A stretch of DNA of 64,000 bases from positions 310,001 through 374,000 of the forward strand of contig NZ_BBWQ01000001.1 in NCBI RefSeq assembly GCF_001463885.1, written 5' to 3'. This DNA is from Aureimonas altamirensis. GTDB taxonomy: Bacteria; Pseudomonadota; Alphaproteobacteria; Rhizobiales; Rhizobiaceae. A program made the position numbers and the translations under genes. The notes below the pieces were generated by a model. The model was not told the origin of the DNA. It did not search any database and saw only the letters and a program-made list of their open reading frames with translations. Below, in pieces: positions 5,188 to 25,491 of this stretch (position 1 is its first letter; each line of letters opens with the position of its first letter).

Positions 5188-6210
5188 TCAGGCCGCGGCC
5201 TCGGCCGCGGTCTGGCGTCTTGCGGCAAGCCGCGCCGCCAGACGCAGGGCGGCTTCCATCGCGCCCGCATCGGCAATGCCCCTGCCGATAATATCGAAGG
5301 CCGTGCCATGGGCCGGCGTGGTAAAGACCGTGGCAAGCCCGGCAGTCACCGTGACGCCCTGGTTGAAGCCCTTCAGCTTCGTCGCGATCTGTCCCTGGTC
5401 GTGATACATCGCGAGAACGCCATCATAAGCACCGCCAAATGCCTTGAGATAGACCGTGTCGGCGGGGAAGGGGCCTTCGCAGGCATAGCCTTCCGCGGCC
5501 ATGGCCGCGACGGCAGGCGCGATCGTGTCTATCTCCTCGCTGCCGAACAGCCCGTTTTCTCCGGCATGCGGATTGAGGGCCGCAACGGCAAGGCGCGGTT
5601 GCTCGATGCCGGCACGCCGCATCGTATCCACCGCCAGGCGGATGGCATTGCGGATGGATGACGCGTCGATCTGGTCGAGGGCCTGTCGCAGGGAAACATG
5701 CGAGGTCACGCGCGACATCCACCACTGGCCAAGAACATTCATCTCGCTGAAATAGCCTCGATGGCCCAGAAGGTGTGCGAACATCTTGTGCTCGTCCGGA
5801 AAGCGCCATCCGCCATCGAACAAGGCGCGCTTGTTCAGCGGGGCGAAGCTTACCGCATCGACCGAACCGGCAATGGCAAGGTCGATCGCGGCCTTCAACG
5901 TATCGCCGGTCACCCTGCCGGAGCCGGCATCGGCGATCCCGACGGGAAAGTGCGACGGATCGGTGTTCTTAAGATCGATCATCGGGATGGCCTCGCCGCT
6001 CCAGTCTGCTTGCGAAGGGTCGAGGCATGGCCGCATCTCGAACGGCTTTCCGGCCCGGCGTTGGCCTTCCTCGAAAACCCTGGCATCCCCGATCAGCAGC
6101 AGGCGGGCGTCATCGGCAACCCTGCGCTCTGCGACGATTGTCGCGACCAGCTCCGGTCCGATCCCGGTGCAGTCGCCGGCCGTAAGCGCGATGATCGGTC
6201 TGTGCGGCAT
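5188..6210 (-). CDS. PdxA2-like D-threonate/D-erythronate-4-phosphate dehydrogenase
   Basis: A 340-residue member of the PdxA family, NAD-dependent dehydrogenases that oxidise and decarboxylate 4-phospho-hydroxy acids. Motifs include ALTAGDCTGIGPEL at the N-terminus and the metal-binding histidines in FPDEHKMFAHLLG, NPHAGENGLFG and AMYHDQGQIATK. True PdxA serves vitamin B6 synthesis. Here the catabolic setting and GntR-type operator suggest the PdxA2 branch acting on tetronate phosphates. The usual DUF1537 kinase partner is not in the window. GGGAGGGAACC precedes the ATG at 6210. The last codons form a perfect CCGCGGCC/GGCCGCGG hairpin that may also end transcription. Confidence 0.8.
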   Translation of the reverse strand: MPHRPIIALTAGDCTGIGPELVATIVAERRVADDARLLLIGDARVFEEGQRRAGKPFEMRPCLDPSQADWSGEAIPMIDLKNTDPSHFPVGIADAGSGRVTGDTLKAAIDLAIAGSVDAVSFAPLNKRALFDGGWRFPDEHKMFAHLLGHRGYFSEMNVLGQWWMSRVTSHVSLRQALDQIDASSIRNAIRLAVDTMRRAGIEQPRLAVAALNPHAGENGLFGSEEIDTIAPAVAAMAAEGYACEGPFPADTVYLKAFGGAYDGVLAMYHDQGQIATKLKGFNQGVTVTAGLATVFTTPAHGTAFDIIGRGIADAGAMEAALRLAARLAARRQTAAEAAA

Positions 6211-6237: not shown

Positions 6238-6251
6238 AACTGTTGACAATT
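6238..6251. promoter_or_regulatory. GntR-type operator (site 1)
   Basis: AACTGTTGACAATT, an imperfect palindrome of the form AAyTGTnnACArwt. It lies 27 bases ahead of the pdxA2-like start and 49 bases ahead of the divergent dehalogenase-like gene, so it could control both. A further half-site, AACTGTC, lies at 6224-6230. The same motif occurs at three other promoters in this block. Confidence 0.65.
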
Positions 6252-6300
6252 TTGCGAGGCAAAGCAAGATGCCCGTCGCGACAAACCGGGAGGAACGGGA

Positions 6301-7224
6301 ATGTCTCGACCAGCGGAATCAGCCATCCATCCGGCCAGCAGCCTTTTGCCAGGCTTCGACCATAAGGGGCTGCGCACGGCGGGAGCCGACATCAACTACG
6401 CTGTCGGCGGAAGCGGGCCCCCGCTGCTCTTGCTGCATGGCAATCCGCTGACGCATGTGAGCTGGCACAAGGTGGCGCCGTCGCTGGCCGAACGGTTCAC
6501 CGTCGTCATCCCGGATCTGCGCGGATACGGGGACAGCTCCAAACCCGATGGAGGCGAAGACCATTCCGCCTACAGTTTCCGGGCCATGGCGCAGGACAAT
6601 ATCGAGCTGATGCGTAGTCTCGGCTTCGATCGCTTCCAGCTGGCCGGCCATGACCGTGGCGCCCGCGTGGCGTTTCGGATGGCGCTCGACGCGCCCCAGG
6701 CGGTCAGCCGGTTGGCCGCGCTGGACATCGTTCCGACCTATGAGCTCTTGTCCAATGTGACGCTGGGATGGGGTCTGGAAAGCTATCACTGGTTCTTCAT
6801 GGCCCAGAAAGCGCCATTTCCGGAGCGGCTCATCGGAGCAGACCTCGAATATTACATCGACTACAAGCTCAACAAGAAGGGTGTGGGTCTCTCGATCTTC
6901 GATCCCCGCGCCTTCGCGGAATACAAGCGATGCACGACGCATGAGCAGATCCATGCCGTCTGCGAGGACTACCGCGCGACGGTGACGGTCGATCACCAAA
7001 TGGATGCGGCGGACAGGGCCGCCGGCCGCAGGATCGAATGCCCCGTGCTGGTGCTCTGGGGCAGCAACAGCCATGTCGGTCGGCATCTGAAGCCGATGGA
7101 AAGCTGGAGCCGCTGGGCGGACGATCTGCGCGGCCATGCCATAGAGACGGGTCATTACCCGGCCGAGCAAAGGCCTGATCTCGTGCTTGCCGCTTTCGAA
7201 AACTTCTTCGATCCGGCGGGCTGA
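6301..7224 (+). CDS. Alpha/beta hydrolase of the haloacetate (fluoroacetate) dehalogenase type
   Basis: A 307-residue alpha/beta hydrolase. Seen: oxyanion-hole HGNP (46-49); nucleophile motif GHDRGAR giving Asp118 with Arg119 and Arg122; Asp142 in LDIVPTY; His163-Trp164 in YHWFFMAQ; Tyr224 in CEDYRA; base His285 in TGHYPAEQRPD. In fluoroacetate dehalogenases the equivalent arginines bind the carboxylate and the His/Trp/Tyr set binds the halide, so all of those positions are present. Epoxide hydrolases lack the DRGAR arrangement. Known enzymes convert haloacetates to glycolate. The AGGAACGGGA before the ATG supports the start. It is co-transcribed with the rhodanese gene and likely controlled by the GntR site at 6238. 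Confidence 0.8.
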   Translation: MSRPAESAIHPASSLLPGFDHKGLRTAGADINYAVGGSGPPLLLLHGNPLTHVSWHKVAPSLAERFTVVIPDLRGYGDSSKPDGGEDHSAYSFRAMAQDNIELMRSLGFDRFQLAGHDRGARVAFRMALDAPQAVSRLAALDIVPTYELLSNVTLGWGLESYHWFFMAQKAPFPERLIGADLEYYIDYKLNKKGVGLSIFDPRAFAEYKRCTTHEQIHAVCEDYRATVTVDHQMDAADRAAGRRIECPVLVLWGSNSHVGRHLKPMESWSRWADDLRGHAIETGHYPAEQRPDLVLAAFENFFDPAG

Positions 7225-7227
7225 AGG

Positions 7228-8451
7228 ATGGCCGGAGCGATCTCAGCGCGCGAGGCCAGGCACCGCGTGCACGGCGCGGGTGAAATCGCCTTTCTGGATA
7301 TTCGCGATGCCGGGCCATATGTCGCCGGACATCCTTTGCTGGCGGTTCCCTGTCCTGTCGGCCGGTTCGATGCGGACCTGCACTGGCTGGTCCCACGCCG
7401 CAGTTGCCCCGTCCTGCTCGTCGATGGCGGCGACGGTACGGCGGCAGGGGCTGCCGACCGGATGTCGGCATTCGGATATGGCGACGTATGTTGGATCGAG
7501 GGCGGCGTACAAGGGTGGGCCGATGCCGGCTATACGCTCTACGAAGGCGTCAACGTGCCCAGCAAGACGCTGGGTGAACTTCTGGACGTCGAATGGCGGG
7601 TGCCCCGCATAAAGGCGGATGCACTCGCGGACTGGCAATCGGAAGCCAGGGCGTTTCATCTGTTCGACGGTCGGCCGGTCGAAGAGTTCAGCCGGACGAC
7701 GATACCGGGCGCACGGAACGCTCCGAATGGCGAGCTGGTCCACCGCGCAATGGAGTATTTTTCAGACGAGGCGCCGGTGGTCATCTGCTGCGCCGGGCGA
7801 ACCCGCAGCATCATCGGCGCCGCCAGCGTGGCGCTGGCCGGGTTCAGGCAGCCGGTCTACGCCCTGGAAAATGGTACGAGAGGCTGGCTTCTTTCGGGCC
7901 GCCACCTGATGCGCGACGCCGGCGCGCAAGCGCTTCCGCTTCTCGGTGCGCAAGCCTTGCAGGCAAGCCGCGCCAGGGCGCGGGACCTGATCCGTCAAAG
8001 CGGCCTGTCCTGCATAGAGGCCGGCAATGTTGCGGCAATGCAGGCGGAGCCCGGCCGGACGACCTTTCTGATCGATGTCCGCTCGCATGAGGAGTTCGCG
8101 GCCGGCAGTCTTGCCGGCGCGGTCCATGCGCCCTTTGTCCAACTGGTGCAGGCAAGCGACCGGTTTGTCGGCGTCCGCCGGGCCCGGCTTGTGCTGGTGG
8201 ACGATACGGGCCTGCGCGCCGCGTTGGCAGCCGTGTTTCTGCAGGCAATGAATTTCGAGGTGCATTTGCTGATCGGGGCAGAGATGTCGGCCGTGCCGAC
8301 GTGGCCGAACGGTCGTACCGTTCCGCCGCCGCCTCCGCAGGATGACAGCCCGGATGCCGCACGGCGATATCTGGAATGGGAAACGGGGCTGGTCGGCAGG
8401 CTGGACGCCGAGGAAAGGGCCGAGTTCCGCATCGGCCCATCCCCGTTCTGA
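7228..8451 (+). CDS. Protein with three rhodanese-like domains, one catalytic
   Basis: A 407-residue cytoplasmic protein starting three bases after the hydrolase. It reads as three rhodanese modules: residues 1-105, about 115-235 and about 250-375. Only the middle module has the active-site loop (CAGRTRS, Cys188); the first and third have VDGGDGT and VDDTGLR in the equivalent place and are probably structural or ligand-binding. Rhodaneses transfer sulfane sulfur or bind anions. The tight pairing with a dehalogenase-like hydrolase suggests a joint role, for example handling of a sulfur or thiol intermediate, but this is not shown by the sequence. Confidence 0.75.
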   Translation: MAGAISAREARHRVHGAGEIAFLDIRDAGPYVAGHPLLAVPCPVGRFDADLHWLVPRRSCPVLLVDGGDGTAAGAADRMSAFGYGDVCWIEGGVQGWADAGYTLYEGVNVPSKTLGELLDVEWRVPRIKADALADWQSEARAFHLFDGRPVEEFSRTTIPGARNAPNGELVHRAMEYFSDEAPVVICCAGRTRSIIGAASVALAGFRQPVYALENGTRGWLLSGRHLMRDAGAQALPLLGAQALQASRARARDLIRQSGLSCIEAGNVAAMQAEPGRTTFLIDVRSHEEFAAGSLAGAVHAPFVQLVQASDRFVGVRRARLVLVDDTGLRAALAAVFLQAMNFEVHLLIGAEMSAVPTWPNGRTVPPPPPQDDSPDAARRYLEWETGLVGRLDAEERAEFRIGPSPF

Positions 8452-8454
8452 CAA

Positions 8455-9546
8455 TCAGGCGGCTGCCGCTCCGGCTTCTGTCCCGATTGCCCTGACGATG
8501 CCTTCCAGCATGTCCTGCGTTCCGCCGGTGCCGTTGATGTCGCGCGTGCGCGTGGCCGTGTCGGACAGCGCGACCGCGATTGCCGATTGCAGCAGGCGCG
8601 CGGCCTCCACGGCCTCGCCGATGCCGCGATCGCGCCCCAGCCATTCCACCATCATCCGGGCGGATTCGATCATGGCGAACGGGTTGGCGATGCCCTTGCC
8701 GGCAATGTCCGGGGCCGAGCCATGGGTTGCCTGCGCCATGGCGATGGCGCCTTCTCCGATGCACAGGCCCGGCGCCATCCCGAGGCCGCCGACCAGCCCC
8801 GCCGCCTCGTCGGTCAGTATGTCGCCGAACATGTTGGTGGTGACGATGGTATCGAAGCTTTGCGGATCGCGGATGAGCCGGAGCGCCATCGTGTCCACGA
8901 TCACCTCGTCCATCCGCACATCCGGAAACTCGGCGGCGACGCGGTGGCACTCTTCCACGAACATGCCGCAGCCCAGCTTGAAGACGGTATTCTTGTGAAC
9001 GACCGTCAGATGCTTGCGGCGCTGCCGCGCGATCTCGAAGGCGGCTCTTGCGACGCGTGACGAGCCCTGGCGCGTTATGACGCGAACGGAGATGGTGGTG
9101 TCTTCCGTGGGGCGGAACTCGCCGGAACCCGCAACCACGTTGCGGTCCGGCTGGAAGCCTTCGTTGTTTTCGCGCACGATCACCAGGTCGATATCGTCGC
9201 GCAGCGCGCCGAGGCCGGGAAAGGCCCGCGTCGGCCGGACATTGGCAAACAGGTTGAAATGCTTGCGCATGATCGGATGCGGATTGATGGCGCCGTCGAC
9301 CTTCGGGTAGGCCTGATGCCCGATGGGCCCGAGGATGAACCCGTCCAGTTTGGCAAGTTCCTCCAGCGTATCGCGCGGCAGCGTGGTGCCGAGCGTATCC
9401 AGCGCGCGCCGGCCAATCGGAAACGGGCGCCAATCGATCGCAAGCCCGCTGGCGCGCGCGGCGGCTTTCACCGCAGCCACCGCGGCCGGCACGATCTCAT
9501 GGCCGATGTCGTCGCCTTCGAGGATGCCGATCTTCAAGTGCGTCAT
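8455..9546 (-). CDS. Isocitrate/isopropylmalate dehydrogenase family protein
   Basis: A 363-residue beta-decarboxylating dehydrogenase that oxidises a (hydroxy)malate-type acid with NAD(P). Motifs: GILEGDDIGHEIV at the N-terminus, FANVRPTRAFPG and VIVRENNEGFQ (substrate-binding arginines and glutamate), the lysine segment VVHKNTVFKLG, the metal aspartates in MFGDILTDEAAG, and the NAD-site THGSAPDIAGKGIANP. It is more distant from true LeuB and from the TtuC-like paralogue at 19 kb. It is third in an operon behind two MmgE/PrpD genes; GAGGAGGC precedes the ATG. The natural substrate is not evident. Confidence 0.88.
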   Translation of the reverse strand: MTHLKIGILEGDDIGHEIVPAAVAAVKAAARASGLAIDWRPFPIGRRALDTLGTTLPRDTLEELAKLDGFILGPIGHQAYPKVDGAINPHPIMRKHFNLFANVRPTRAFPGLGALRDDIDLVIVRENNEGFQPDRNVVAGSGEFRPTEDTTISVRVITRQGSSRVARAAFEIARQRRKHLTVVHKNTVFKLGCGMFVEECHRVAAEFPDVRMDEVIVDTMALRLIRDPQSFDTIVTTNMFGDILTDEAAGLVGGLGMAPGLCIGEGAIAMAQATHGSAPDIAGKGIANPFAMIESARMMVEWLGRDRGIGEAVEAARLLQSAIAVALSDTATRTRDINGTGGTQDMLEGIVRAIGTEAGAAAA

Positions 9547-9558
9547 GGGACTGCCTCC

Positions 9559-10902
9559 TCAGTGTGCGCTATCGTGCGCGATCGACGCTGCATCCGCGCT
9601 CGAGCCGATCTGCCAGGCCGTTTGCAGCAACCGCTCGGCCTTGTCTTCGCCGACCACCAGGGCGGCCTGTTTGCGGAATTTCCCGGAGATCGCCTCATCC
9701 GACAAAGGCCGCTCGATGCTGCCGATGGCGTGGGGCACGTCCAGCTCTATGGTGCGGCCGTCGGCAAGGGCGATGCGGATGAAAACCGCATCCTCCGGCA
9801 TCGCAGGATCGGCGACCGCCTCCACCTTGTCGCGCAGGGCGATGACTTTCGGGTCTGCCACGATGGCGTCGGTAAAGGCGGTCGGAGATCCGTCGCCGTG
9901 CAGCAGCGCTACCGCCGCCGCGTGATAGACGCTGAACTTGCCTTCCAGCCCGGTGCGCGGTGTCTTTTTGCCGGTCAGCTCCAGCACGAGCGGATGGGTG
10001 CGCAGATGAACCGAGGCGATGTCGCCGCCGTCCTGCGGCAGCCGCTCGCGCAGTTGCTGGCAGCCGTCGATCGTCGGATGGATGACGATGCCGCAGGCAA
10101 ACGGCTTGTACGAGTTCAACGCGGCTTCCCAGCGCTGGCCGAGGCCGCCGAGGATTTCGTCGTAATCCTGCTTGGTTGACAGGACATTGGCAAAGCCGCG
10201 TGGCGCCTCGATGCCGCGCTCTGAGGAATCGAAGTCGGCTTCTGCCAGAAAGGCCGCCATCGCGCCGTTCTGTGCCGCGCGCCCCGGATGGAAGCTCTTG
10301 GTCATCGTGCCGAACATTTCGCGCAGGCCGGATGCCTGTGTTGCGGCCAGGCTCAACGCCCATGTCATCTGCTGCTCCGACAGGCCAAGGAGCCGGCCCG
10401 TCGCCGCCGCGGCGCCGAAGACGCCGGCCGTGCCGGTGATATGCCAGCCCCTGTCGTAATGATCGGGGTAGACGCTGTTGCCGATACGGCATTCCACCTC
10501 GATGCCGGCGATCAACGCGGTAAGGAAGTCTTTCCCGCTGACGGCGCGCCCTTCCGAGACCGCAAGGATAGCCGAGGCGACCGGGCCGGCCGGATGGATG
10601 ATCGTCTTCAGATGCGTGTCGTCATAGTCCAGCACATGCGAGGAAATGCCGTTGACGAGCGCCGCATGGAGGGCGTCCAGCCGGTCGCCGCGCCCGATGA
10701 CCTGGGCGCTTGCCTTGCCGGAGAACGGCCTGACGGCCGCAAGCGCCCTGTCGACCGTTTCATGCGAAGCGCCCCCGAGCGCACAGCCGAACCAGTTCAC
10801 GAATGTCCGCACGCCTTCCTGGCGTACCGTATCTGGAATGGCATCGGCATCGAGCCCGACGATCCAGCGCGCGAGCTGGCGGGTTACGTCTGTCTGTTCC
10901 AT
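9559..10902 (-). CDS. MmgE/PrpD family protein (copy 1)
   Basis: A 447-residue member of the family that includes 2-methylcitrate dehydratase PrpD and cis-aconitate decarboxylase (IRG1/CadA). Residues matching the decarboxylase active site can be seen: the DDTH segment followed by IHPAG, RGWHITGTAG, the lysine in TMTKSFHPG and the histidine in VIHPTIDG. These enzymes eliminate water or CO2 from tricarboxylic acids or their analogues. The reaction here is unknown. It lies 12 bases upstream of the dehydrogenase at 8455-9546 and 64 bases downstream of the second MmgE/PrpD gene. Confidence 0.88.
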   Translation of the reverse strand: MEQTDVTRQLARWIVGLDADAIPDTVRQEGVRTFVNWFGCALGGASHETVDRALAAVRPFSGKASAQVIGRGDRLDALHAALVNGISSHVLDYDDTHLKTIIHPAGPVASAILAVSEGRAVSGKDFLTALIAGIEVECRIGNSVYPDHYDRGWHITGTAGVFGAAAATGRLLGLSEQQMTWALSLAATQASGLREMFGTMTKSFHPGRAAQNGAMAAFLAEADFDSSERGIEAPRGFANVLSTKQDYDEILGGLGQRWEAALNSYKPFACGIVIHPTIDGCQQLRERLPQDGGDIASVHLRTHPLVLELTGKKTPRTGLEGKFSVYHAAAVALLHGDGSPTAFTDAIVADPKVIALRDKVEAVADPAMPEDAVFIRIALADGRTIELDVPHAIGSIERPLSDEAISGKFRKQAALVVGEDKAERLLQTAWQIGSSADAASIAHDSAH

Positions 10903-10966
10903 GATGTTTCCGAGGTTTTCGACGCGGCGGGAGGGGCGCGTTCGATGACGCGCCCCATGCGGCGGA

Positions 10967-12379
10967 TCAGACCGTTATCAGCAGCCTGGTGATGGGATCG
11001 ACGCTCGGCAGCGTCTCCAGAACGCGGACGAGCTCGACGATCTCGTCGGCCTTCTGCCGGCTCATTCCGGCAAACTCCGCATTTTCGCGGAACTTGTCCG
11101 CAACCTCGTCGTAGCTCATCGGAAATGCCGGCGAGCCCTTGCCGAAATCCGCCCTGCCGGAGATGCGTCGGCCATCCTTCAGGTCGATGTCGATGATGGT
11201 CGTCATGAGATGGTAGCCGGCGGCCTCCGCCTCGTCGTCGATCACGAAATCGACCTTCTCGATCATCGCCTTGACGTCATCGCGGGCGACGACCTCGTCG
11301 GTGAATTCGGCAAGGCCGGCGCGCCCTTCCAGAAGCAGGATCGCCATGCAGAATTCCATCGAGAACTTCGCCTGAAGCTCATCGGTGGGCCGATGGTGGA
11401 TCAGTGCGTTCGGCATGTTGGAATTGGTGCCGACACGGACATGCACCACATCTTCGGCGCGGATGCCGTTTTCCCGGATGAGGCGCAGCATCTCCGTCAT
11501 GCCGGGATGGGTGAGCGACCCGGATGGATGCGGCTTGATGGATACGCCCGGGTTCACGAAGGTCCAGGGCTTTCCGAGGCGCCCCTCGATGGCCGCCGGG
11601 TCGTAGCCACCCCCGGCCGCCGAGAAGAAGCCGCGCGGCGCTTCCAGGATCTTCGATGTCGCCGTCCATCCATAGGCGGCGAACTGCGCCGCCGCGACGC
11701 CGCTTTCCGAGGCCTTGCCCGCATGGAAGGGCTTGGTCATCGTACCGAAATTCTCGCGCAGGCCCGCCGACTGGCTGCCCGCGATGGATAGGGCGCGCTG
11801 CGTCGTCTCCACGTCGAACCCCGATAGCCGCGATGCCGCCGCTGCCGCCGCGAACGTGCCGCAGGTGGCCGTGGCATGGAATCCTGTCTGGTAATGGCGC
11901 GGGTTGATCGCCTCGGCGATCTTGCATTCCACCTCGACGCCCAGATGGTAGGCCAGCATGAAGTCCGCGCCGGATGCGCCCGTCACTTCGGCCATTGCCA
12001 GCGCTGCCGGAAGCGCTGGTGCCGTGGGGTGGGTCAACAGGCCGTAGACCCGGTCCTTGGCGACGGCAAGCTGGGTATCGTCATAGTCGTCCGCATGGAT
12101 GCCGACGCCGTTGGCGAAAGCGGCAAAGCGGGGCGCCACCTTGCGTCCGCCACCGATGACCGTTGCCTTCCCGTCGCCGAGCGAAAGATCGTCCAGATGT
12201 TGGCGGACGAGGGCGCCGGAGCGCGCCACAGAGCCGGAAAGCGCCAGGCCGAAACCGTCCAGAATGGATTTCTTGCCGACGGCGACCAGCTCCTCCGAAA
12301 GGGTCGAGCCTTCGGTACGGACGACGAATTCCGCGACCTCTGCGGTCAGGCCGGTCTTAACGGGGGCCATCTGATTCAT
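10967..12379 (-). CDS. MmgE/PrpD family protein (copy 2)
   Basis: A 470-residue MmgE/PrpD protein, first gene of the operon that continues with copy 1 and the dehydrogenase. It has DDYDDTQ, LLTHPTAPA, GFHATATCGTF, TMTKPFHAGKA and SIKPHPSGSLTH, so the catalytic histidines and lysine are kept although DDTH has become DDTQ. AGGGAG five bases before the ATG at 12379 decides the start over an in-frame ATG at 12412. The GntR-type operator 49 bases upstream probably controls the unit. Confidence 0.88.
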   Translation of the reverse strand: MNQMAPVKTGLTAEVAEFVVRTEGSTLSEELVAVGKKSILDGFGLALSGSVARSGALVRQHLDDLSLGDGKATVIGGGRKVAPRFAAFANGVGIHADDYDDTQLAVAKDRVYGLLTHPTAPALPAALAMAEVTGASGADFMLAYHLGVEVECKIAEAINPRHYQTGFHATATCGTFAAAAAASRLSGFDVETTQRALSIAGSQSAGLRENFGTMTKPFHAGKASESGVAAAQFAAYGWTATSKILEAPRGFFSAAGGGYDPAAIEGRLGKPWTFVNPGVSIKPHPSGSLTHPGMTEMLRLIRENGIRAEDVVHVRVGTNSNMPNALIHHRPTDELQAKFSMEFCMAILLLEGRAGLAEFTDEVVARDDVKAMIEKVDFVIDDEAEAAGYHLMTTIIDIDLKDGRRISGRADFGKGSPAFPMSYDEVADKFRENAEFAGMSRQKADEIVELVRVLETLPSVDPITRLLITV

Positions 12380-12428
12380 GTTCACTCCCTCATGTTTGTC
12401 TTTGATCGACATTCTTATGAAAACTGTA

Positions 12429-12442
12429 AATTGTCAACAAAC
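12429..12442. promoter_or_regulatory. GntR-type operator (site 2)
   Basis: AATTGTCAACAAAC, a match to AAyTGTnnACArwt with two weak end bases, 49 bases ahead of the MmgE/PrpD copy 2 start and just downstream of the gntR gene at 12482-13168. A second partial half, AACTGT, lies at 12422-12427. Confidence 0.6.
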
Positions 12443-12481
12443 GACGATAAGGTTTGGGCCGATGGGGCGCCGCGCTGTTGC

Positions 12482-13168
12482 CTAGCGCGGTTTCTTGGCC
12501 TGCCGCGTGCGGGTTATGCCGTTCATGATGTGGCCTCGGGCGGCGGTCAGCGCGCGTGCCGGATCGCGGGCGGCGAGGGCGTCCACGATGGCCTTGTGCT
12601 CTTCGTTCGAGACCTGAAGCACATCGGTGCTGGACAGAGCGCGATAACGCTGGATGTGCAATTCCCGGACGAAGCTCTGGTAGATGAGGGCGAGCCGCTT
12701 GTTGCCGCCCAGTTCGGTGATGCGGCGGTGGAATTCCAGGTTGATCGGGTAATAGATGTGCACGTCGTTGAGGGATGCGACCTCGTCCATACGGTCGGTC
12801 AGCGCCCGCAACGATGCGACCTCGTCGTCGGTGATGCGTTCGGCCGCCATCATGGCCAGGCAGCCGAACACGCTGGCGCGTGCCTCGGACAGATCCTGCG
12901 CCTCGTCATTGGTGAGAGCCCGGATGAAGAAACCCCGATTGGGGATGATCTCGATCAGGCCCATGGCCGCGAGCGCGCTGCATGCCTCGCGGATGGGGCC
13001 CCGGCTGACGCCGAGGCGTTGCGAGAGGCCGTTTTCGTTGACGCGCTCGTTGGGCTTCAGCTCTCCATCGATGATCATCCGCTCGATCTCCGCCTGCACG
13101 ACATTCGCAAGGGAGCGCGTGCGCAGGAAATCGATGGCGGAAAGATTGGTATCGGTGAGCTTGGACAT
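12482..13168 (-). CDS. GntR-family regulator, FCD (FadR) subfamily
   Basis: A 228-residue transcription regulator. The winged helix-turn-helix spans about residues 15-85 with LSQRLGVSRGPIREACSAL as recognition region. The C-terminal all-helical FCD domain (about 95-215) has the metal-binding pattern of an early aspartate/glutamate pair and histidines (LEFHRRI, NEEHKAI, RGHIMNG). FCD regulators sense carboxylic acids and usually repress nearby catabolic genes. Its position between two units carrying the shared palindrome makes it a good candidate for their regulator. A hairpin at 13198-13225 separates it from the ABC operon, and a CTGACTgAGTCAG repeat at 13230-13242 lies in its promoter region. 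Confidence 0.92.
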   Translation of the reverse strand: MSKLTDTNLSAIDFLRTRSLANVVQAEIERMIIDGELKPNERVNENGLSQRLGVSRGPIREACSALAAMGLIEIIPNRGFFIRALTNDEAQDLSEARASVFGCLAMMAAERITDDEVASLRALTDRMDEVASLNDVHIYYPINLEFHRRITELGGNKRLALIYQSFVRELHIQRYRALSSTDVLQVSNEEHKAIVDALAARDPARALTAARGHIMNGITRTRQAKKPR

Positions 13169-13197
13169 CAGGAGACCATATACGGTTGCGGGTCGAT

Positions 13198-13225
13198 GGA
13201 GCGGCGTCCGGTTGGACGCCGCTCC
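13198..13225 (-). terminator. Hairpin at the end of the ABC operon
   Basis: Perfect 12-bp stem GGAGCGGCGTCC/GGACGCCGCTCC with a GGTT loop, between the permease stop and the gntR start. No T run follows on the minus strand, so termination may be partial. Confidence 0.6.
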
Positions 13226-13277
13226 CTGCCTGACTGAGTCAGTCTTGGCAATACTAGTGCATGTTGCGCCGGCTGCG

Positions 13278-15002
13278 TCAGCCCCGCGCGTTCATCTGGC
13301 TGCCACCCAGCACCGGAACCTTGTTCGCCACGTATACCACGCTGAACGAGGCGACCAGCAGGATGATGCCGAGGACGCAGATTGCGCCCAGATCGCCGCT
13401 TTCGTTGAGATCGTAGATGATGACCGAGACGAGCTTGGTGTTGGCCGTCGTCAGCAGGATCGTTGCCGACAGCTCGCGGATCGTGCCGACGAACACGAAG
13501 CACCATGCCGCGACGACGCTGGTGCGCAGCAGCGGGGCGGTTATGTCCCAGAGGGTCTTCAGCCGCGATGCCCCCATGATCCGCCCTGCTTCCTCCAGCT
13601 CGGGATGGACGCCGGCAAATGCCGACGACATCTGCTGATAGCCGGCTGGAAGCTCGATCGTGATGAAGGCGATGAGCAGGATCCAGAGCGTTCCGTAAAG
13701 CTGGAACGTCGGGTTGGCGTAGGACAGAAACAGGCCGACGCCCAGGACGATGCCGGGAATGGCGATCGGGGCCGTCGCGAGGACGCCAAGATACTGGGCC
13801 CCCGGCATGGAGCGCCGCGATACGAGGTAGGAAACCAGCAGCGCGATGCCGGTGACGATCGTTGCCGTGACGACCCCCAGGAAGAACGTATTGCGCAGCG
13901 CCAACTGCGTCGCCGAAAATTCGAACAGCACGAAGTTCCAGTGCCGCAGCGTCAGGTTTTCCAAAGTCAGGGAATCGCCGACGGTATTGGTGAAGGCCGT
14001 CTTCACGATTGCCGCATAGGGCAGGAAGATGGTCAGCGACAGGACCGAGAGCGCGAAGGTGACGGCGAGCCACTTCCACTTTCCGAGCTTGGTTATGCGC
14101 GGCGTGCCGCTTTTGCCGCCAAGAACCGTATAACCCCGCCGCCCCAGGATGGAGCGCTGCGCCCGCAGCAGCATGACGGTGATGATGAGCAGCGGGATGG
14201 CGGCCGCCGCTGCCAGACCCGGCTTGGGCGGAAACTGGAACAGGCTCCAGATCTTGGTCGTGATGACGTGGAAGCCGGCAGGGAGCGCGATGATGGCGGG
14301 CGAACCGAACATGGTGAGCGCCTGCAGAATGGCGATCAGAGTGCCGGCAAGCATGGCGGGCAGCACCATCGGTATGGTGACCTTGCGCAGCGTGGTCATG
14401 GCGCGGCCGCCCAGGATCGACGAGGCGTCCTCCAGGTCGGACGGAACCTTGTCGAGTGCGTTCGACACCAGCGTGAAGACATAAGGGAAGGTGAAGCACG
14501 CGATGGCGAAGACGAGCCCGGTGAAGGTGTAGATGTTCACCAGATGTGCCGAACGGTCGAGGCCGAACAGGTTGCGATAGGCGACGTTGACAAGGCCCGA
14601 ATTGGGCGCGGCGATGATTTCGTAGGCCACCGCGCCCAGGAAGGGCGGCGTCACGAAGGATGCCGTCACCAGAATGCGGATCAGCCGTCGCCCGGGAAGG
14701 TCCGTCCGCGCCACCAGCCAGGCCATGGGCGTTGCCACGACGCAGCAGGTGACGCCGACGGCGAGGGACATGCCCAGTGCCAGGCCGTAGGCCTTTGTCA
14801 GCGTTGGGTCGGTTATCAGCGCGGCGAAATTGGAGAAGGTGAAGCCGCCGCCCCTGTCGGAGCGGAAGCTATAGAAGAGAAGCCAGAACAGCGGCAGCAG
14901 GACGAGCACGCTGAGAAGCCCGGCCAGCAGCCCGAAGACGGGCCAGGAAAGGTCGACGCGCTTGCGCCGACCCTGCATTTCCTGCGCGATCACGGCGGTC
15001 AT
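13278..15002 (-). CDS. ABC transporter permease, fused double-domain (iron(III)/AEP type)
   Basis: A 574-residue inner-membrane permease with about 12 helices in two halves. Each half has an EAA loop that docks to the ATPase (EDASSILGGRAMTTLRKV near residue 210 and EEAGRIMGASRLKTLWDI near residue 480). The fused layout is that of FbpB, ThiP and 2-aminoethylphosphonate permeases. It lies ten bases after the binding-protein gene, in an operon of ATPase, binding protein and permease. GAGGGCAC lies before the start. Substrate is discussed under the binding protein. Confidence 0.9.
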   Translation of the reverse strand: MTAVIAQEMQGRRKRVDLSWPVFGLLAGLLSVLVLLPLFWLLFYSFRSDRGGGFTFSNFAALITDPTLTKAYGLALGMSLAVGVTCCVVATPMAWLVARTDLPGRRLIRILVTASFVTPPFLGAVAYEIIAAPNSGLVNVAYRNLFGLDRSAHLVNIYTFTGLVFAIACFTFPYVFTLVSNALDKVPSDLEDASSILGGRAMTTLRKVTIPMVLPAMLAGTLIAILQALTMFGSPAIIALPAGFHVITTKIWSLFQFPPKPGLAAAAAIPLLIITVMLLRAQRSILGRRGYTVLGGKSGTPRITKLGKWKWLAVTFALSVLSLTIFLPYAAIVKTAFTNTVGDSLTLENLTLRHWNFVLFEFSATQLALRNTFFLGVVTATIVTGIALLVSYLVSRRSMPGAQYLGVLATAPIAIPGIVLGVGLFLSYANPTFQLYGTLWILLIAFITIELPAGYQQMSSAFAGVHPELEEAGRIMGASRLKTLWDITAPLLRTSVVAAWCFVFVGTIRELSATILLTTANTKLVSVIIYDLNESGDLGAICVLGIILLVASFSVVYVANKVPVLGGSQMNARG

Positions 15003-15012
15003 CGATGTGCCC

Positions 15013-16056
15013 TCACGTGCCGAAATATTGTTCGTAATTGGACTTGATCGTATCGATCTGCTCTTCGAGCTTCAGCGGATCGATCTGCAGCACCTTGATG
15101 TCGGAAAGGGGCGTCCTGCTTTCCTTTTCGACGACCTCCGGATGGAAGGAACGCAGGCCACCGGAATCGCTGTTCAACTGCTGGGCCTCCTTGGAAAACA
15201 GGAAGGCATAGAACAGCTTGGCAGCGTCCGCGTTGGGCGCGTTCTTCAACACGGCCGCATTGCCGACAGCAAGCGGGGTGCCTTCTTCGGGATAGACGAT
15301 CTCGATCGGCACGCCCTCGTCCTTCAGGCGGAAGATATTGTACTCGTTGCCGTCGATTTCGATGGATCGCTCGCCCTGGGCCAGCTTCTTGGGTGGCTCG
15401 GTCGAGGACTGCACCTGCATGACGTTCTGCGAACCGAGCTTCTCGAAGAACTCCCAGCCAAGCAGCTCGCTGAGCGCGAAGGTTGCCGTCATCACCGTGC
15501 CGGAATAGCCGGGATGGGCCTTGACCATCTTGCCATTGTATTTCGGATCGAGAAGGTCGGTCCATGTCTTCGGCGCGTCGGCGGCATCCACGAGATCGGA
15601 GCGATAGGCAAGCACCGAAAGATGGGCGCGGTAGGCCGCGAAGTTGCCGTCCGGGTCTTTTTCCGCTTCGGGCCACAGGTCCGCCACGACCTTGGGCACC
15701 ATCGGCTCGAGCCACCCTTCGCGCTTGAAATACTCGAAATGGACCGAGTCCGATGTTTCGATCACGTCGGCATTGTAGATGCCGCTCATATATTCCTGCC
15801 CGATCCGCTGGAAGACGCGCTCGGAACCCGCGCGCTCCACCTGGACCTGGATTTCCGGATAGGACTTGCGGAATAGCTGGGCAAGCTGCTCGGCTACCGC
15901 GACGTCCGTCGCCGTATAGAAGACGACCTTGCCCTCGGCCTTGGCCGCTTCGACCAGCTCGGGTGTTATCTCATAGGGCTCCGGCGCCTGTGCCAGCGCG
16001 GATGCGCTGCCCATGGCGAAGGCCATCAGAGTGGCGGACAGATGCTTCAACCACAT
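15013..16056 (-). CDS. ABC transporter periplasmic binding protein (iron/AEP-type family)
   Basis: A 347-residue binding protein with a Sec signal peptide (LSATLMAFAMGSASALAQA) followed by the FbpA-like start EGKVVFYTATDVAVAEQL. Iron-binding members carry paired tyrosines near the C-terminus; the equivalent area here reads SDSGGLRSFHPEV, so ferric iron is unlikely. The catabolic neighbours and the GntR-type operator upstream of the operon point to an organic anion. GGAGGAAAGACAAA precedes the ATG at 16056; longer in-frame starts were rejected. Confidence 0.85.
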   Translation of the reverse strand: MWLKHLSATLMAFAMGSASALAQAPEPYEITPELVEAAKAEGKVVFYTATDVAVAEQLAQLFRKSYPEIQVQVERAGSERVFQRIGQEYMSGIYNADVIETSDSVHFEYFKREGWLEPMVPKVVADLWPEAEKDPDGNFAAYRAHLSVLAYRSDLVDAADAPKTWTDLLDPKYNGKMVKAHPGYSGTVMTATFALSELLGWEFFEKLGSQNVMQVQSSTEPPKKLAQGERSIEIDGNEYNIFRLKDEGVPIEIVYPEEGTPLAVGNAAVLKNAPNADAAKLFYAFLFSKEAQQLNSDSGGLRSFHPEVVEKESRTPLSDIKVLQIDPLKLEEQIDTIKSNYEQYFGT

Positions 16057-16085
16057 TTTGTCTTTCCTCCCTTTTTTTTGTGTTT

Positions 16086-17171
16086 TCAGCGCGCCAGCGC
16101 GCGGCAATGCTGCGGCGGAAACTCCAGCCAGACCTCCTGGCCGACCGGTATCTCCACATCCACGGGCGCGACGGCGCGGATCGTTTCCTGGTTGGGCAGC
16201 GACACCAGATAGTCCCGGTGCGAGCCCAGATAGATCTGTCGTTTCACGATGCCGTTGGCGGTATTGGTTTGCGCATCCGTCGGCTTGCGCGGCGACAGGT
16301 TGATGTTGTGGTGGCGGATGGAAACCGCGGTCTTGCCGCTGGCCGCCCGCTCGCCGCTGCCGCAACGCAAGACGATGCCGGTTTCTCCGATCACGCTGTC
16401 GCCCGGGCCGCGGTCGCCCCGAAGAATGTTCGTGCCACCGATGAAGTTGGCGACGAATTCGGTTTCCGGTCGCTCGTAGATATCCTCCGGCGTGCCGGCC
16501 TGCTCGATGCGGCCATCGTTCATGACGACGATCATGTCGGCCGTCGTCATGGCTTCGGCCTGGTCATGCGTGACGTAGACGGTGGTGTAGCGGAATTCGT
16601 CATGCAGGCGGCGGATCTCGAAGCGCATCTCTTCGCGCAGATTGGCGTCCAGATTGGACAGCGGCTCATCGAGAAGCAGGATCTGCGGCTTGATCACCAG
16701 CGCGCGCGCCAGCGACACGCGCTGCTGCTGTCCGCCGGACAGCTCGCCCGGATATCGCTCGGCCAGCGGCGTCAGCTTGGTCGCATCCAGGATTTCGCGG
16801 ACGCGGGCCTTCACCTCGTCGCCCTTCATCTTGCGCAGCTTCAGGCCGTAGGCGACGTTGTTGAAGACCGTCATATGAGGCCAGAGCGCGTAGCTCTGGA
16901 AGATCATCGACATATTCCGGTCTTCCGGCGCAACCGTGGCCGTGCCCGAAGATATGGCGCGTCCGCCCACCCGTATTTCGCCGCCCGACGCCGGAACGAA
17001 GCCAGCGATCAACCGCAGCGTCGTCGTCTTGCCGCAGCCGGATGGGCCCAGAAGGCACACCAGCTTGCCGCGCTCGACGGCCAGGTCGATGCCGCGCACC
17101 GCCTGGAAGTCCCCATAGTTCTTGATAAGCCTGTCAAGTTCGAGGAATGCCAATTTCCTGCCTCCCGTCAT
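16086..17171 (-). CDS. ABC transporter ATP-binding protein
   Basis: A 361-residue ATPase, first gene of the importer operon. Walker A GPSGCGKTT (residues 43-51), Q-loop in MIFQSYALWPHM, signature LSGGQQQR, Walker B ILLLDEPLS and the switch histidine in YVTHDQAEAM are all present. The C-terminal third is a TOBE-like domain of the PotA/FbpC group. A GntR-type operator lies 52 bases upstream of the start. Confidence 0.92.
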   Translation of the reverse strand: MTGGRKLAFLELDRLIKNYGDFQAVRGIDLAVERGKLVCLLGPSGCGKTTTLRLIAGFVPASGGEIRVGGRAISSGTATVAPEDRNMSMIFQSYALWPHMTVFNNVAYGLKLRKMKGDEVKARVREILDATKLTPLAERYPGELSGGQQQRVSLARALVIKPQILLLDEPLSNLDANLREEMRFEIRRLHDEFRYTTVYVTHDQAEAMTTADMIVVMNDGRIEQAGTPEDIYERPETEFVANFIGGTNILRGDRGPGDSVIGETGIVLRCGSGERAASGKTAVSIRHHNINLSPRKPTDAQTNTANGIVKRQIYLGSHRDYLVSLPNQETIRAVAPVDVEIPVGQEVWLEFPPQHCRALAR

Positions 17172-17223
17172 GCGATCGCTTCTTCCCGCGTTGCATGACT
17201 GGGACGTTAGGACTCGTACTGAA

Positions 17224-17237
17224 AACTGTCAACAGAT
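17224..17237. promoter_or_regulatory. GntR-type operator (site 3)
   Basis: AACTGTCAACAGAT, matching AAyTGTnnACArwt, in the gap between the SDR stop and the ABC ATPase start. It probably controls the ABC importer operon. Confidence 0.65.
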
Positions 17238-17282
17238 TACTATTTTCAGTCTGTGGTGCGGTGCAACCTCGGTTGCAGGATG

Positions 17283-18023
17283 TCAGGGCATCAGCGCGCC
17301 GCCATTGACGTGCAGCGTCTGGCCGGTGATGAATCGGGCATCCGGGCCGGCCAGCATATGCACGGCCGCAGCCACTTCCTGCGCGGTTCCAAGCCGCTGC
17401 AACGGGTTGCGCCTTTCGGCGTGGTGCGCCGGTTCCGGCCCCTGGCGCTGGGTATGGATCATGCCGGGCGATACGCAATTGACGGTAATCCCGTCGCTGC
17501 CGACCTCGTGGGCAAGCGCCTTGACGAGGCCGGATACGCCCGCCTTGGCCGCCACGACGTGGGGGCGGCCCTTTGCGCCGCTTTGGCCCGTCATGCCGCC
17601 GATGGCGATGAAGGAGGGCTGGGTGCCGCGCCGCAGATGCGGAAGCGCCGCCTGGGCCAACAGGAACACGCTGTCCAGCGCAAGGGCCATGACGCGACGC
17701 CAGTCTTCGAAGCTCAGCGTCTCGAAGGTCGCTTCGGGCCTGATCGCCGCATTGGCGACGACGACATCGAGGCGGTGGGTAAGATGGACCGTCTGCTGCA
17801 CCAGCCTGGCAGGGGTTTCAGGGTCCGCAAGGTCGCCGATGGCGACGGCCGCCTTTCCGCCCGCCTGCTCGACAAGATCGGCCGTTTCCTTCGCCGCTGC
17901 TTCGTCCTGCCCGGCATGAACGAGCACGAACGCCCCCTCGCGTGCAAAGGCAAGCGCAATTTCCCGCCCGATATTGCGGGACGCGCCCGTTACCAGAACG
18001 GACCGCTGTATTGTATCAGACAT
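17283..18023 (-). CDS. SDR-family protein lacking the usual catalytic Ser and Tyr
   Basis: A 246-residue short-chain dehydrogenase/reductase. The cofactor motif VTGASRNIGREIA (11-23), the NAA motif (91-93) and the lysine of YxxxK (Lys160) are present. The catalytic serine position is Gly143 (FIAIGGMTG) and the tyrosine position four before the lysine is Val156, with His155 next to it. Either histidine substitutes for tyrosine or the protein is not a normal oxidoreductase. GGGAG lies before the ATG, and the GntR-type operator lies 42 bases upstream. It may be co-regulated with the importer and dehydratase genes. Confidence 0.85.
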   Translation of the reverse strand: MSDTIQRSVLVTGASRNIGREIALAFAREGAFVLVHAGQDEAAAKETADLVEQAGGKAAVAIGDLADPETPARLVQQTVHLTHRLDVVVANAAIRPEATFETLSFEDWRRVMALALDSVFLLAQAALPHLRRGTQPSFIAIGGMTGQSGAKGRPHVVAAKAGVSGLVKALAHEVGSDGITVNCVSPGMIHTQRQGPEPAHHAERRNPLQRLGTAQEVAAAVHMLAGPDARFITGQTLHVNGGALMP

Positions 18024-18064
18024 CGTCCAACTCCCAAATTTGCCGATGGCTCACAAGAATTGAT

Positions 18065-18078
18065 AACTGTCGACAATT
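18065..18078. promoter_or_regulatory. GntR-type operator (site 4)
   Basis: AACTGTCGACAATT, the best match to AAyTGTnnACArTT in the window, 42 bases upstream of the SDR start and ten bases past the stop of the gntR gene at 18088-18825. Confidence 0.7.
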
Positions 18079-18087
18079 CAAGAGGCC

Positions 18088-18825
18088 CTACAGGCGTGAC
18101 AGGCCGAGTTTGCGCACCAGCGGCAGGATCGCCGCGCAGGCAGAGCGCCGATGCCCCGCTGCTGCCTCCCGCGCGGCAGCGGTATCGCCGGCGCGCAAGG
18201 CTTCGACGATCGTCCGGTGCTGTCCGGCGGAGTCGACCGGCAAGGGGCGCAGCTTCAGCGTGAACATGCGCGCGCGATGCAGCTGATCTTCGATGGTGCC
18301 GGCCATTCTTTGCAGCCGCGCATTGCCACAGGCAGCAACAAGCGTTTCGTGAAACTTTTCGTCGGCCGCTGCCCATTCTGCGAGATCGTTGTCCTGCAAC
18401 GCCGTTTCCATCGCATCCGTCAGCGCCGCCAGCGCGTCGGCCGTTGCGCCCCGCGACCCTGCCGGCTGCCCGGCCAGACGCTCGGCCGCCGCTCCTTCCA
18501 GCGCCACCACGATCTCGTAGGCATCGGCCAGTTCGGCGGGCGACAGGCCACAGATCAGGATACCGCGCTTGGGCTGTATCCGCACGAGACCTTCTTCCTG
18601 AAGGCGCGCCATTGCCTGATGAACCGGGGTCCGGCTCATGCCGAGTTGCCTGGCTATCTCCACTTCGCCGGCATGATACCCCGGCTCGAAACGGTTGGAC
18701 CGGATCGCCTCCTTGATCGCCGCATAGGCCGCATCCGCAAGGCCGGCTTCCGGCGTGCCCTGCTGCGAAGGCCCCAGGCGGGGCGAGAGCAGCGACGCAG
18801 GACTTGGCTGGGAAGGGCGGGGCAT
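18088..18825 (-). CDS. GntR-family regulator, FCD subfamily (second)
   Basis: A 245-residue regulator. After an unusually long proline/serine-rich N-terminal tail (about 28 residues), a winged helix-turn-helix follows with IARQLGMSRTPVHQAMARL, then an FCD ligand domain with DEKFHETLV, GQHRTIVEAL and AAGHRRSA as likely metal-binding elements. It is divergent from the tartrate/malate-dehydrogenase-like gene at 19 kb, with a perfect palindrome between them. It may control that gene, the shared AAyTGTnnACArwt regulon, or both. Confidence 0.9.
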   Translation of the reverse strand: MPRPSQPSPASLLSPRLGPSQQGTPEAGLADAAYAAIKEAIRSNRFEPGYHAGEVEIARQLGMSRTPVHQAMARLQEEGLVRIQPKRGILICGLSPAELADAYEIVVALEGAAAERLAGQPAGSRGATADALAALTDAMETALQDNDLAEWAAADEKFHETLVAACGNARLQRMAGTIEDQLHRARMFTLKLRPLPVDSAGQHRTIVEALRAGDTAAAREAAAGHRRSACAAILPLVRKLGLSRL

Positions 18826-19001: not shown

Positions 19002-20075
19002 TTGAACACGTACAAGATCGCAGCGATCCCGGCGGATGGGATCGGCCCGGAAGTCATCGCGGCCGGGTTGCAGGCGCTGGAATCCCTGGAGCGGCGCGAG
19101 GGCACATTCAGGCTCGACGTCACGCAGTTCGATTGGGGTTCGGCCTATTACAAGGCCAATGGCCGCATGATGCCGGATGAAGGCATCGAAACCTTGAAGG
19201 CCTATGATGCGATCTTCTTCGGCGCCGTCGGTGCGCCGGACGTGCCGGACCACATCACCCTGTGGGGCCTGCGACTGCCGATCTGCCAGGGCTTCGACCA
19301 ATACGCCAATGTGCGGCCGACGCGGATCCTGCCCGGCATCGTCTCTCCGCTGGCTGGCGTCGGCCCCGGCGACCTGGACTGGGTGATCGTGCGTGAAAAT
19401 TCCGAGGGCGAGTATTCCGGACATGGCGGGCGTGCCCACAAGGGCCTTCCGGAAGAGGTGGGAACCGAGGTCGCCATCTTCACCCGGGTCGGGGTGACAC
19501 GCATCATGCGGTACGCGTTCCGTCTGGCCCAGTCGCGGCCGCGCAAGTTTCTGACGGTCGTCACCAAATCCAACGCACAGCGCCACGGCATGGTGATGTG
19601 GGACGAGATCGCCGCGGAAGTGGCGAGCGAATTTCCCGACGTGACATGGGACAAGATGCTGGTGGATGCGATGACGGTGCGCATGACGCTGAACCCGCGC
19701 AGCCTGGATACGATCGTTGCCACCAACCTGCATGCCGACATCCTGTCCGACCTTGCCGGCGCGCTGGCCGGCAGCCTTGGCGTTGCACCGACCGCCAACA
19801 TCGATCCGGAACGGCGCTATCCCTCGATGTTCGAGCCGATCCACGGTTCGGCATTCGATATCACCGGCAAGGGCATCGCCAACCCGGTCGCGACATTCTG
19901 GACGGCGGCGCAGATGCTGGAGCATCTTGGCGAAGGCCGGGCCGCGATCCGCCTGATGCAGGCCGTGGAGACGGTGACGGGCGACGGGGTGATGACCCCG
20001 GATATCGGCGGCAGCGCCACCACACAGGAGGTGACGGACGCGGTCTGCGAAGCGATCCGCGCCTCCAACATCTGA
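19002..20075 (+). CDS. Tartrate/D-malate dehydrogenase-like protein (TtuC/DmlA type)
   Basis: A 357-residue beta-decarboxylating dehydrogenase. The segment VPDHITLWGLRLPICQGFDQ followed by YANVRPTRILPG is typical of tartrate dehydrogenase/decarboxylase and D-malate dehydrogenase rather than LeuB. Other family motifs are VIVRENSEGEYSG, TKSNAQRHGM, NLHADILSDLAG and IHGSAFDITGKG. Likely products are pyruvate or hydroxypyruvate-type compounds with CO2 and NADH. The start is TTG at 19002, supported by GAGGGGAC eight bases upstream. It is divergent from the gntR at 18088. Confidence 0.88.
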   Translation: MNTYKIAAIPADGIGPEVIAAGLQALESLERREGTFRLDVTQFDWGSAYYKANGRMMPDEGIETLKAYDAIFFGAVGAPDVPDHITLWGLRLPICQGFDQYANVRPTRILPGIVSPLAGVGPGDLDWVIVRENSEGEYSGHGGRAHKGLPEEVGTEVAIFTRVGVTRIMRYAFRLAQSRPRKFLTVVTKSNAQRHGMVMWDEIAAEVASEFPDVTWDKMLVDAMTVRMTLNPRSLDTIVATNLHADILSDLAGALAGSLGVAPTANIDPERRYPSMFEPIHGSAFDITGKGIANPVATFWTAAQMLEHLGEGRAAIRLMQAVETVTGDGVMTPDIGGSATTQEVTDAVCEAIRASNI

Positions 20076-20210
20076 GGCCGGAGCGCGAGCGCCGGGCAAG
20101 AAGGCCCGTTTCATAGCGGAAAGTTATATGGCGGCGCGCAATTGTCTATTCGTGCCGCCCTTCGCCCTTTGATACCACTCGCCCCAGCGAACAAGCCTGG
20201 GGGAGACGGC

Positions 20211-25306: not shown

Positions 25307-25491
25307 ATCTAACGATCCCGGTTGCGATAGTGCGCGATTGCCTGCTTTCCTATGTCAACCGGACCCGCCAAGTCGAGGGGGCAGCGCGAAACGTGCTGGC
25401 GGCCATCGTGAAGCTGTATTGGAGCGCGTGAGGGGCGGCGGCGATTGTGCCGCGCAAATGGCTTGATGTTTCGCGCATGGGGAGGAACAGC

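Follow-up and report, generated by a model that had tools for sequence, protein, structure and literature searches.

Which regulator acts on a short palindrome that recurs before several units of an organic-acid gene block, and what could these genes do together? We addressed this question for a block of about 12 kb within a 64,000-nt stretch of the Aureimonas altamirensis genome (NZ_BBWQ01000001.1, positions 310,001–374,000), hereafter the window. An earlier note on this DNA had reported near-identical 14-mers at 6238, 12429, 17224 and 18065, each 27–52 bases before a start codon, and all of these positions and distances were confirmed. Operator 1, AACTGTTGACAATT (6238..6251, like the others given without strand), lies between the divergent pdxA2 and dehalogenase-like genes, 27 bases from the start codon of the former (6210) and 49 bases from that of the latter (6301). 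Operator 2, AATTGTCAACAAAC (12429..12442), precedes prpD2 (12379) by 49 bases and with it the putative prpD2-prpD1-icdh operon; operator 3, AACTGTCAACAGAT (17224..17237), lies 52 bases before the ABC ATPase gene (17171), ahead of the importer genes and gntR1; and operator 4, AACTGTCGACAATT (18065..18078), lies 41 bases before the SDR gene (18023). Our sequence comparisons indicate that the palindrome is very probably the operator of GntR1, a FadR-subfamily GntR protein encoded in the block itself, and that GntR1 is probably a repressor released by the substrate.

Specificity of the palindrome

In a pattern scan of the window, AAYTGTNNACARWT matched exactly at 6238, 17224 and 18065, and with one mismatch at 12429. 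With two mismatches allowed, the count in the window alone was not significant (8 matches on both strands vs 6.25 ± 2.99 in shuffles), and the whole-genome counts are decisive. The exact pattern of the earlier note occurred at three places in the 4,187,548-base genome, all three within the block. The refined pattern AWYTGTYRACARWY, widened so as to fit all four sites, occurred at six places genome-wide (4.19 Mb), four of them in the 12-kb block, where about 0.006 would be expected by chance as computed from the two places outside it; the reversed-pattern control gave none. A position matrix built from 41 distinct 16-mers of relatives, with the window excluded from training, scored the four sites at 25.7, 23.4, 21.9 and 20.6. 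The fifth-best position in the 64 kb scored 3.6, and the top score in 30 Markov-simulated windows was 17.5.

Outside the block, the refined pattern matched exactly at C25:43865 (L011 1501–1514), an intergenic site on another contig of the genome, about 310 bp before an open reading frame (ORF) resembling ribonuclease D; C25:84620 (L120) is a further place outside the block. The earlier pattern had eight one-mismatch places outside the block, seven of which fell inside mechanically called ORFs, among them C1:374788, 0.8 kb past the window; two or three of these seven lie near an ORF end and perhaps not in real coding sequence.

Conservation among relatives

A search for GntR1 in 199 family genomes returned six nearly full-length matches at 74–100% identity, one of them from the window itself. 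The remaining five (G042, G166, G043, G188 and G037) all carry the cluster, which in G043 ends at the contig edge, and have sites before the same units. A broader contig scan with an alignment of GntR1 orthologs gave 48 loci, of which we counted 30 (L060–L089, identity at least 57%). All 30 hold GntR1 by construction, and four of them (L068, L075, L079 and L082) are the same contigs as G042, G043, G188 and G037 and not independent of these. They come from Phyllobacterium, Rhizobium, Mesorhizobium, Aureimonas, Aurantimonas, Mangrovicella, Pseudaminobacter, Shinella, Falsochrobactrum, Paracoccus, Microvirga, Achromobacter, a Devosia metagenome-assembled genome (MAG) and another Rhizobiaceae MAG. 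In these loci the pattern with at most one mismatch occurred 80 times, with 79 sites within 350 bp upstream of a cluster gene and none inside one, and at a matrix score of at least 12 there were 92 sites in 579,547 bp, none of them within the 335,308 bp of identified cluster genes (20-base margin). Counting genes at least 40–60% identical, depending on the gene, with starts at least 300 bases from the locus ends, a site lay upstream of prpD2 in 26/26 cases, of the ABC ATPase gene in 25/25, of the dehalogenase-like gene in 24/26 and of tdh in 16/18. The loci differ in gene order (in L084, L086 and L087, for instance, prpD2 and sdr are divergent), yet the sites travel with the units.

More distant loci fell outside the 30. 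The six at 41–43% identity (L090–L095) had no pattern site, and one of them had a matrix site of at least 12 (score 13.9); L096, L097 and L099 had no sites, and L098 and L100–L107 were left out of the scan. Genome-wide, five genomes that have this cluster or one related to it (G079, G037, G042, G188 and G166) had 10 of their 13 refined-pattern places in the cluster and none for the reversed control, and G159, for which the family search gave no GntR1 ortholog (best match 41%), had no refined-pattern place at all. Paralogous clusters in G024, G125, G172, G054, G079 and G090 likewise bear such sites. In relatives, a site also stands ahead of tripartite tricarboxylate transporter genes: in G037 and G079 it immediately precedes tctC, and in G042 and G188 it separates sdr from a paralogous gntR-tctC unit. 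AbrB-type membrane proteins are encoded between PrpD genes in G188 and G172.

As the earlier note had proposed, the palindrome ties the units into one regulon; this regulon is local and conserved, and an FCD-GntR gene is always present in it. The substrate induction suggested by the note is plausible. The fifth member it named did not hold up: the supposed degenerate copy at 20140 was rejected as a site (matrix score −15.8; the word AATTGTC occurs 10 times in the window), and the acyl-CoA dehydrogenase gene behind it had no match in any of the 30 orthologous loci, which were examined together with flanks of up to 10 kb. No account of this cluster or operator was found in the literature among the matches listed.

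Two Achromobacter loci (L081 and L083) contain the importer, gntR1, prpD2, the dehalogenase-like gene and pdxA2 with the same kind of sites, and their GntR1 is 72–75% identical. This suggests horizontal transfer of the cluster along with its operators.

Assignment of the regulator

The block holds two FCD-GntR genes, both of which had been put forward as candidate regulators. GntR1 (12482..13168, minus strand) has an N-terminal GntR winged helix (PF00392, 57.7 bits vs a cut-off of 27) and a C-terminal FCD domain (PF07729, 90.3 vs 24.3 bits), and it co-occurs with the site. GntR2 (18088..18825, minus strand) is also an FCD-GntR protein, lies beside operator 4 and directly precedes the SDR unit, and could in principle regulate alone or together with GntR1. 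We consider this quite unlikely, as GntR2 is not conserved with the site. It is only 21–30% identical to the GntR1-type proteins compared, and its recognition helix reads SRTPVHQA where that of GntR1 reads SRGPIREA. Homologs of GntR2 (E up to 1e-25) were present in 34/199 family genomes, its own included; 12 of their loci were fetched and, with the window's own excluded, 11/11 had no site at a matrix score of at least 10 in about 1.5 kb of flank each. Among the 30 GntR1 loci, gntR2 was seen in just one (L085), and the gntR2-tdh intergenic region had no site (best matrix score −13.9). Because the helix differs, and because the GntR2-homolog loci and the gntR2-tdh region are free of sites, we assign the operator to GntR1. 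GntR2 may serve tdh through a different operator. The tartrate dehydrogenase gene tdh (19002–20075; TIGR02089, 581.8 bits vs a cut-off of 470.4) is not under the palindrome in the window; it is divergent from gntR2 here, and in L085 the two genes are neighbours next to the importer.

Usually gntR1 lies behind the permease gene in the same orientation, with the site ahead of the importer, so that GntR1 would control itself. Where no ABC importer genes lie directly before gntR1, the site stood before gntR1 itself in three of four loci (L076, L077 and L089; not L078). GntR1-type paralogs about 40% identical, in other clusters (L053–L058), have very similar sites, so that the motif is shared by a clade of regulators. 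Paralogous GntR genes on C10 and in G159 (L052 15186 and L059 9374) carry strong palindromes, scoring 20.6 and 25.5, apparently in their first codons; we discount these cautiously, as they may be either a coding coincidence or an intragenic autoregulatory site.

Operator anatomy and probable mode of control

The core of the operator reads TTGT-YR-ACAA, its outer T being C in a third of the relatives' sites. This is the form expected of the FadR subfamily, whose sites have TKGT and ACMA boxes with GT and AC 2–3 nt apart, the GT-N2-AC form being listed for some members, and can have weak extra boxes 7–12 nt from the centre (PMC4494728). With those sites the present ones share an FCD-type GntR, an A/T-rich palindrome, boxes 2 nt apart and an extra weak half-site. 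When we searched for TTGACAAT-like half-sites (at least 6/8 matches) in the 146 flanks of 73 distinct flanked sites, 41/146 had one shifted by 7 bp and 30/146 by 14 bp, while each of the other 25 shifts gave 0–3. In the window, operators 1, 2 and 4 have the +7 half-site and operator 1 also the +14, both on the pdxA2 side, and operator 3 has weak matches alone (5/8). Unlike the published sites, the +14 half-site lies about 16 nt from the centre, beyond their 7–12 nt, and a 7-bp-lattice operator grammar is not described for FCD regulators in the sections of PMC4494728 consulted. The gene set also differs from FadR-subfamily regulons, as far as it can be set beside that article, whose gene lists were not part of the comparison.

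The placement of the sites bears on how GntR1 could act. At operator 3, a minus-strand TTGACA is followed by TAACGT 17 bp on. TTGACA was present in 20/21 distinct importer sites and 23/25 prpD2 sites, and TAnnnT lay 17 bp from it in 15/21 importer sites and at 16 bp in four more. The frequency of TTGACA raises the possibility that the repeats are mere −35 elements of strong sigma-70 promoters and not operators, a reading we regard as extremely unlikely: both arms of the palindrome are conserved, six of the eight distinct sites facing sdr, some shared with a divergent prpD2, read TCGACA or TCAACA, further half-sites recur with a 7- and 14-bp phasing, and in the whole genome the refined pattern hardly occurs outside one cluster.

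It is improbable, if somewhat less so, that GntR1 activates, in which case the palindrome would be an activator site and would provide the −35 hexamer as well. Some FCD regulators, such as CitO, activate; the site centres lie 33–161 bp before the abc, prpD2 and dehalogenase-like gene starts, and the prpD2 promoters have no clear −10 at 17 bp. In front of the importer, however, the −35 lies under the site and its 17-bp spacing to TAnnnT is conserved, which is a usual position for a repressor. Site placement there fits repression by GntR1.

Building on these computed features, we propose binding, operon structure, repression over activation and an inducer as follows. The gntR1 gene would probably form part of the ABC importer operon, and GntR1 dimers would occupy the palindrome and the nearby half-sites that are phased with it at 7 or 14 bp. 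In the importer promoter, the palindrome overlies the −35 hexamer TTGACA. Without substrate, GntR1 would most likely keep the importer genes and gntR1 itself repressed, along with the operon of MmgE/PrpD and dehydrogenase genes, the divergent pdxA2 and hydrolase genes, and the SDR gene. The imported carboxylate, or a metal complex of it, would then bind the FCD domain and free the promoters. Residues N143, H147, H191 and H213 of GntR1 do not vary among six aligned orthologs and correspond to Asp/His/His/His of 3fms, which we take to be the metal ligands of the FCD domain; an effector carboxylate bound through a metal would agree with this.

Several observations weigh against this regulon and its assignment to GntR1. 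The A. altamirensis genome keeps its two AWYTGTYRACARWY places outside the cluster, and G037, G188 and G166 have one or two such places each. The 30 loci are related and include near-duplicates, and since the matrix was trained on the same loci the counts are partly circular, which does not apply to the extragenic placement. A site lay upstream of sdr in just 5/15 homologs and directly before pdxA2 in 6/25, pdxA2 often sitting behind tdh, and the dehalogenase-like gene had no site in L088 and L089. TAnnnT at 17 bp was absent from all 25 prpD2 sites and all eight sdr sites, and so the −35 overlap is supported for the importer promoter only. Finally, given the similarity of the paralogs' sites, a regulator encoded elsewhere in the genome could cross-bind.

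Enzymes and candidate substrate

The gene families found together point to a substituted, succinate-like acid. They comprise the pdxA2-like dehydrogenase (5188..6210, minus; PF04166, under the NCBIfam PdxA cut-offs), the alpha/beta hydrolase of the fluoroacetate dehalogenase / epoxide hydrolase group (6301..7224, plus), a protein with three rhodanese domains (7228..8451, plus), the isocitrate/isopropylmalate dehydrogenase-family protein Icdh (8455..9546, minus; PF00180), the MmgE/PrpD proteins PrpD1 (9559..10902, minus) and PrpD2 (10967..12379, minus), and the SDR oxidoreductase (17283..18023, minus). Because these MmgE/PrpD, dehydrogenase, PdxA-like, dehalogenase-like, rhodanese and SDR families occur together, we infer that the cluster takes up and degrades a substituted C4 1,4-dicarboxylate, and an organic-acid assignment fits the enzyme families. 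The triple-rhodanese protein occurs in several relatives' clusters and has no evident role in an organic-acid pathway.

PrpD1, PrpD2 and PrpD3 contain the N- and C-terminal MmgE/PrpD domains (PF03972 and PF19305 in PrpD1 and PrpD2) and keep, by manual counting, the six catalytic residues of IDS-epimerase (H85, D88, H99, H150, K198 and K266; PMC12290011), the nearest solved relative of PrpD2. PrpD1 and PrpD2 share only 34% identity. In keeping these residues, the three proteins resemble the IDS-epimerase, methylsuccinate isomerase and cis-aconitate decarboxylase systems of the MmgE/PrpD family (PMC12290011); unlike in such systems, annotation of the units behind the operators showed no itaconate/methylsuccinate-type CoA-transferase. 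The dehalogenase-like hydrolase matches fluoroacetate dehalogenase (3r3u) over nearly its full length and keeps the DRxxR, YHW and GH motifs, but a short tryptophan-holding stretch of 3r3u has no counterpart in the alignment.

Phosphonates gained no support as the substrate. The best NCBIfam scores of GntR1 and the ABC proteins were to the phosphonate-associated GntR family TIGR03338 and to PhnSTUV2-type 2-aminoethylphosphonate importers, but the curated cut-offs were missed: GntR1 reached 194.3 bits against 271.5, and the ABC proteins 360 against 457.7, 178 against 593 and 94 against 393. The importer consists of a fused-type permease (13278..15002), a substrate-binding protein (15013..16056) and an ATPase (16086..17171), all on the minus strand, and no C-P bond-cleaving family was recognised among the annotated window genes. 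Trans-aconitate, itaconate, iminodisuccinate and fluoroacetate were also weighed as substrates, and no support was obtained for them.

A bolder combination would have GntR1 bind the palindrome and half-sites in a strict 7-bp lattice (+7/+14) with a cooperative grammar, and the regulon encode an undescribed Rhizobiales pathway in which a 1,4-dicarboxylate bearing a halogen or an epoxide is first opened by the dehalogenase-like hydrolase and then passes through steps of the PrpD and tartrate dehydrogenase types. Taken as a whole, we hold this to be speculative and of low probability.

Elsewhere in the window, at 25447–28388, a third MmgE/PrpD gene has a gene of the class I fumarase type behind it, two LysR genes adjoining and no palindrome ahead of it; this is perhaps a separate dicarboxylate unit.

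Implications

The regulon is real, well conserved and confined to a single locus, and FadR-subfamily GntR regulons are a well-known kind of local control. To the observation of four repeats, our analysis adds a likely regulator, the rejection of the second GntR protein and of the fifth site, the 7/14-bp phasing of the half-sites, and how far the regulon reaches among relatives. About a dozen vaguely annotated genes, including those for two MmgE/PrpD proteins, isocitrate/tartrate-type dehydrogenases, a PdxA-like protein, a dehalogenase-like hydrolase and a triple rhodanese, are thereby grouped into one conserved and probably co-regulated pathway with its likely regulator named, and this grouping makes the substrate searchable.

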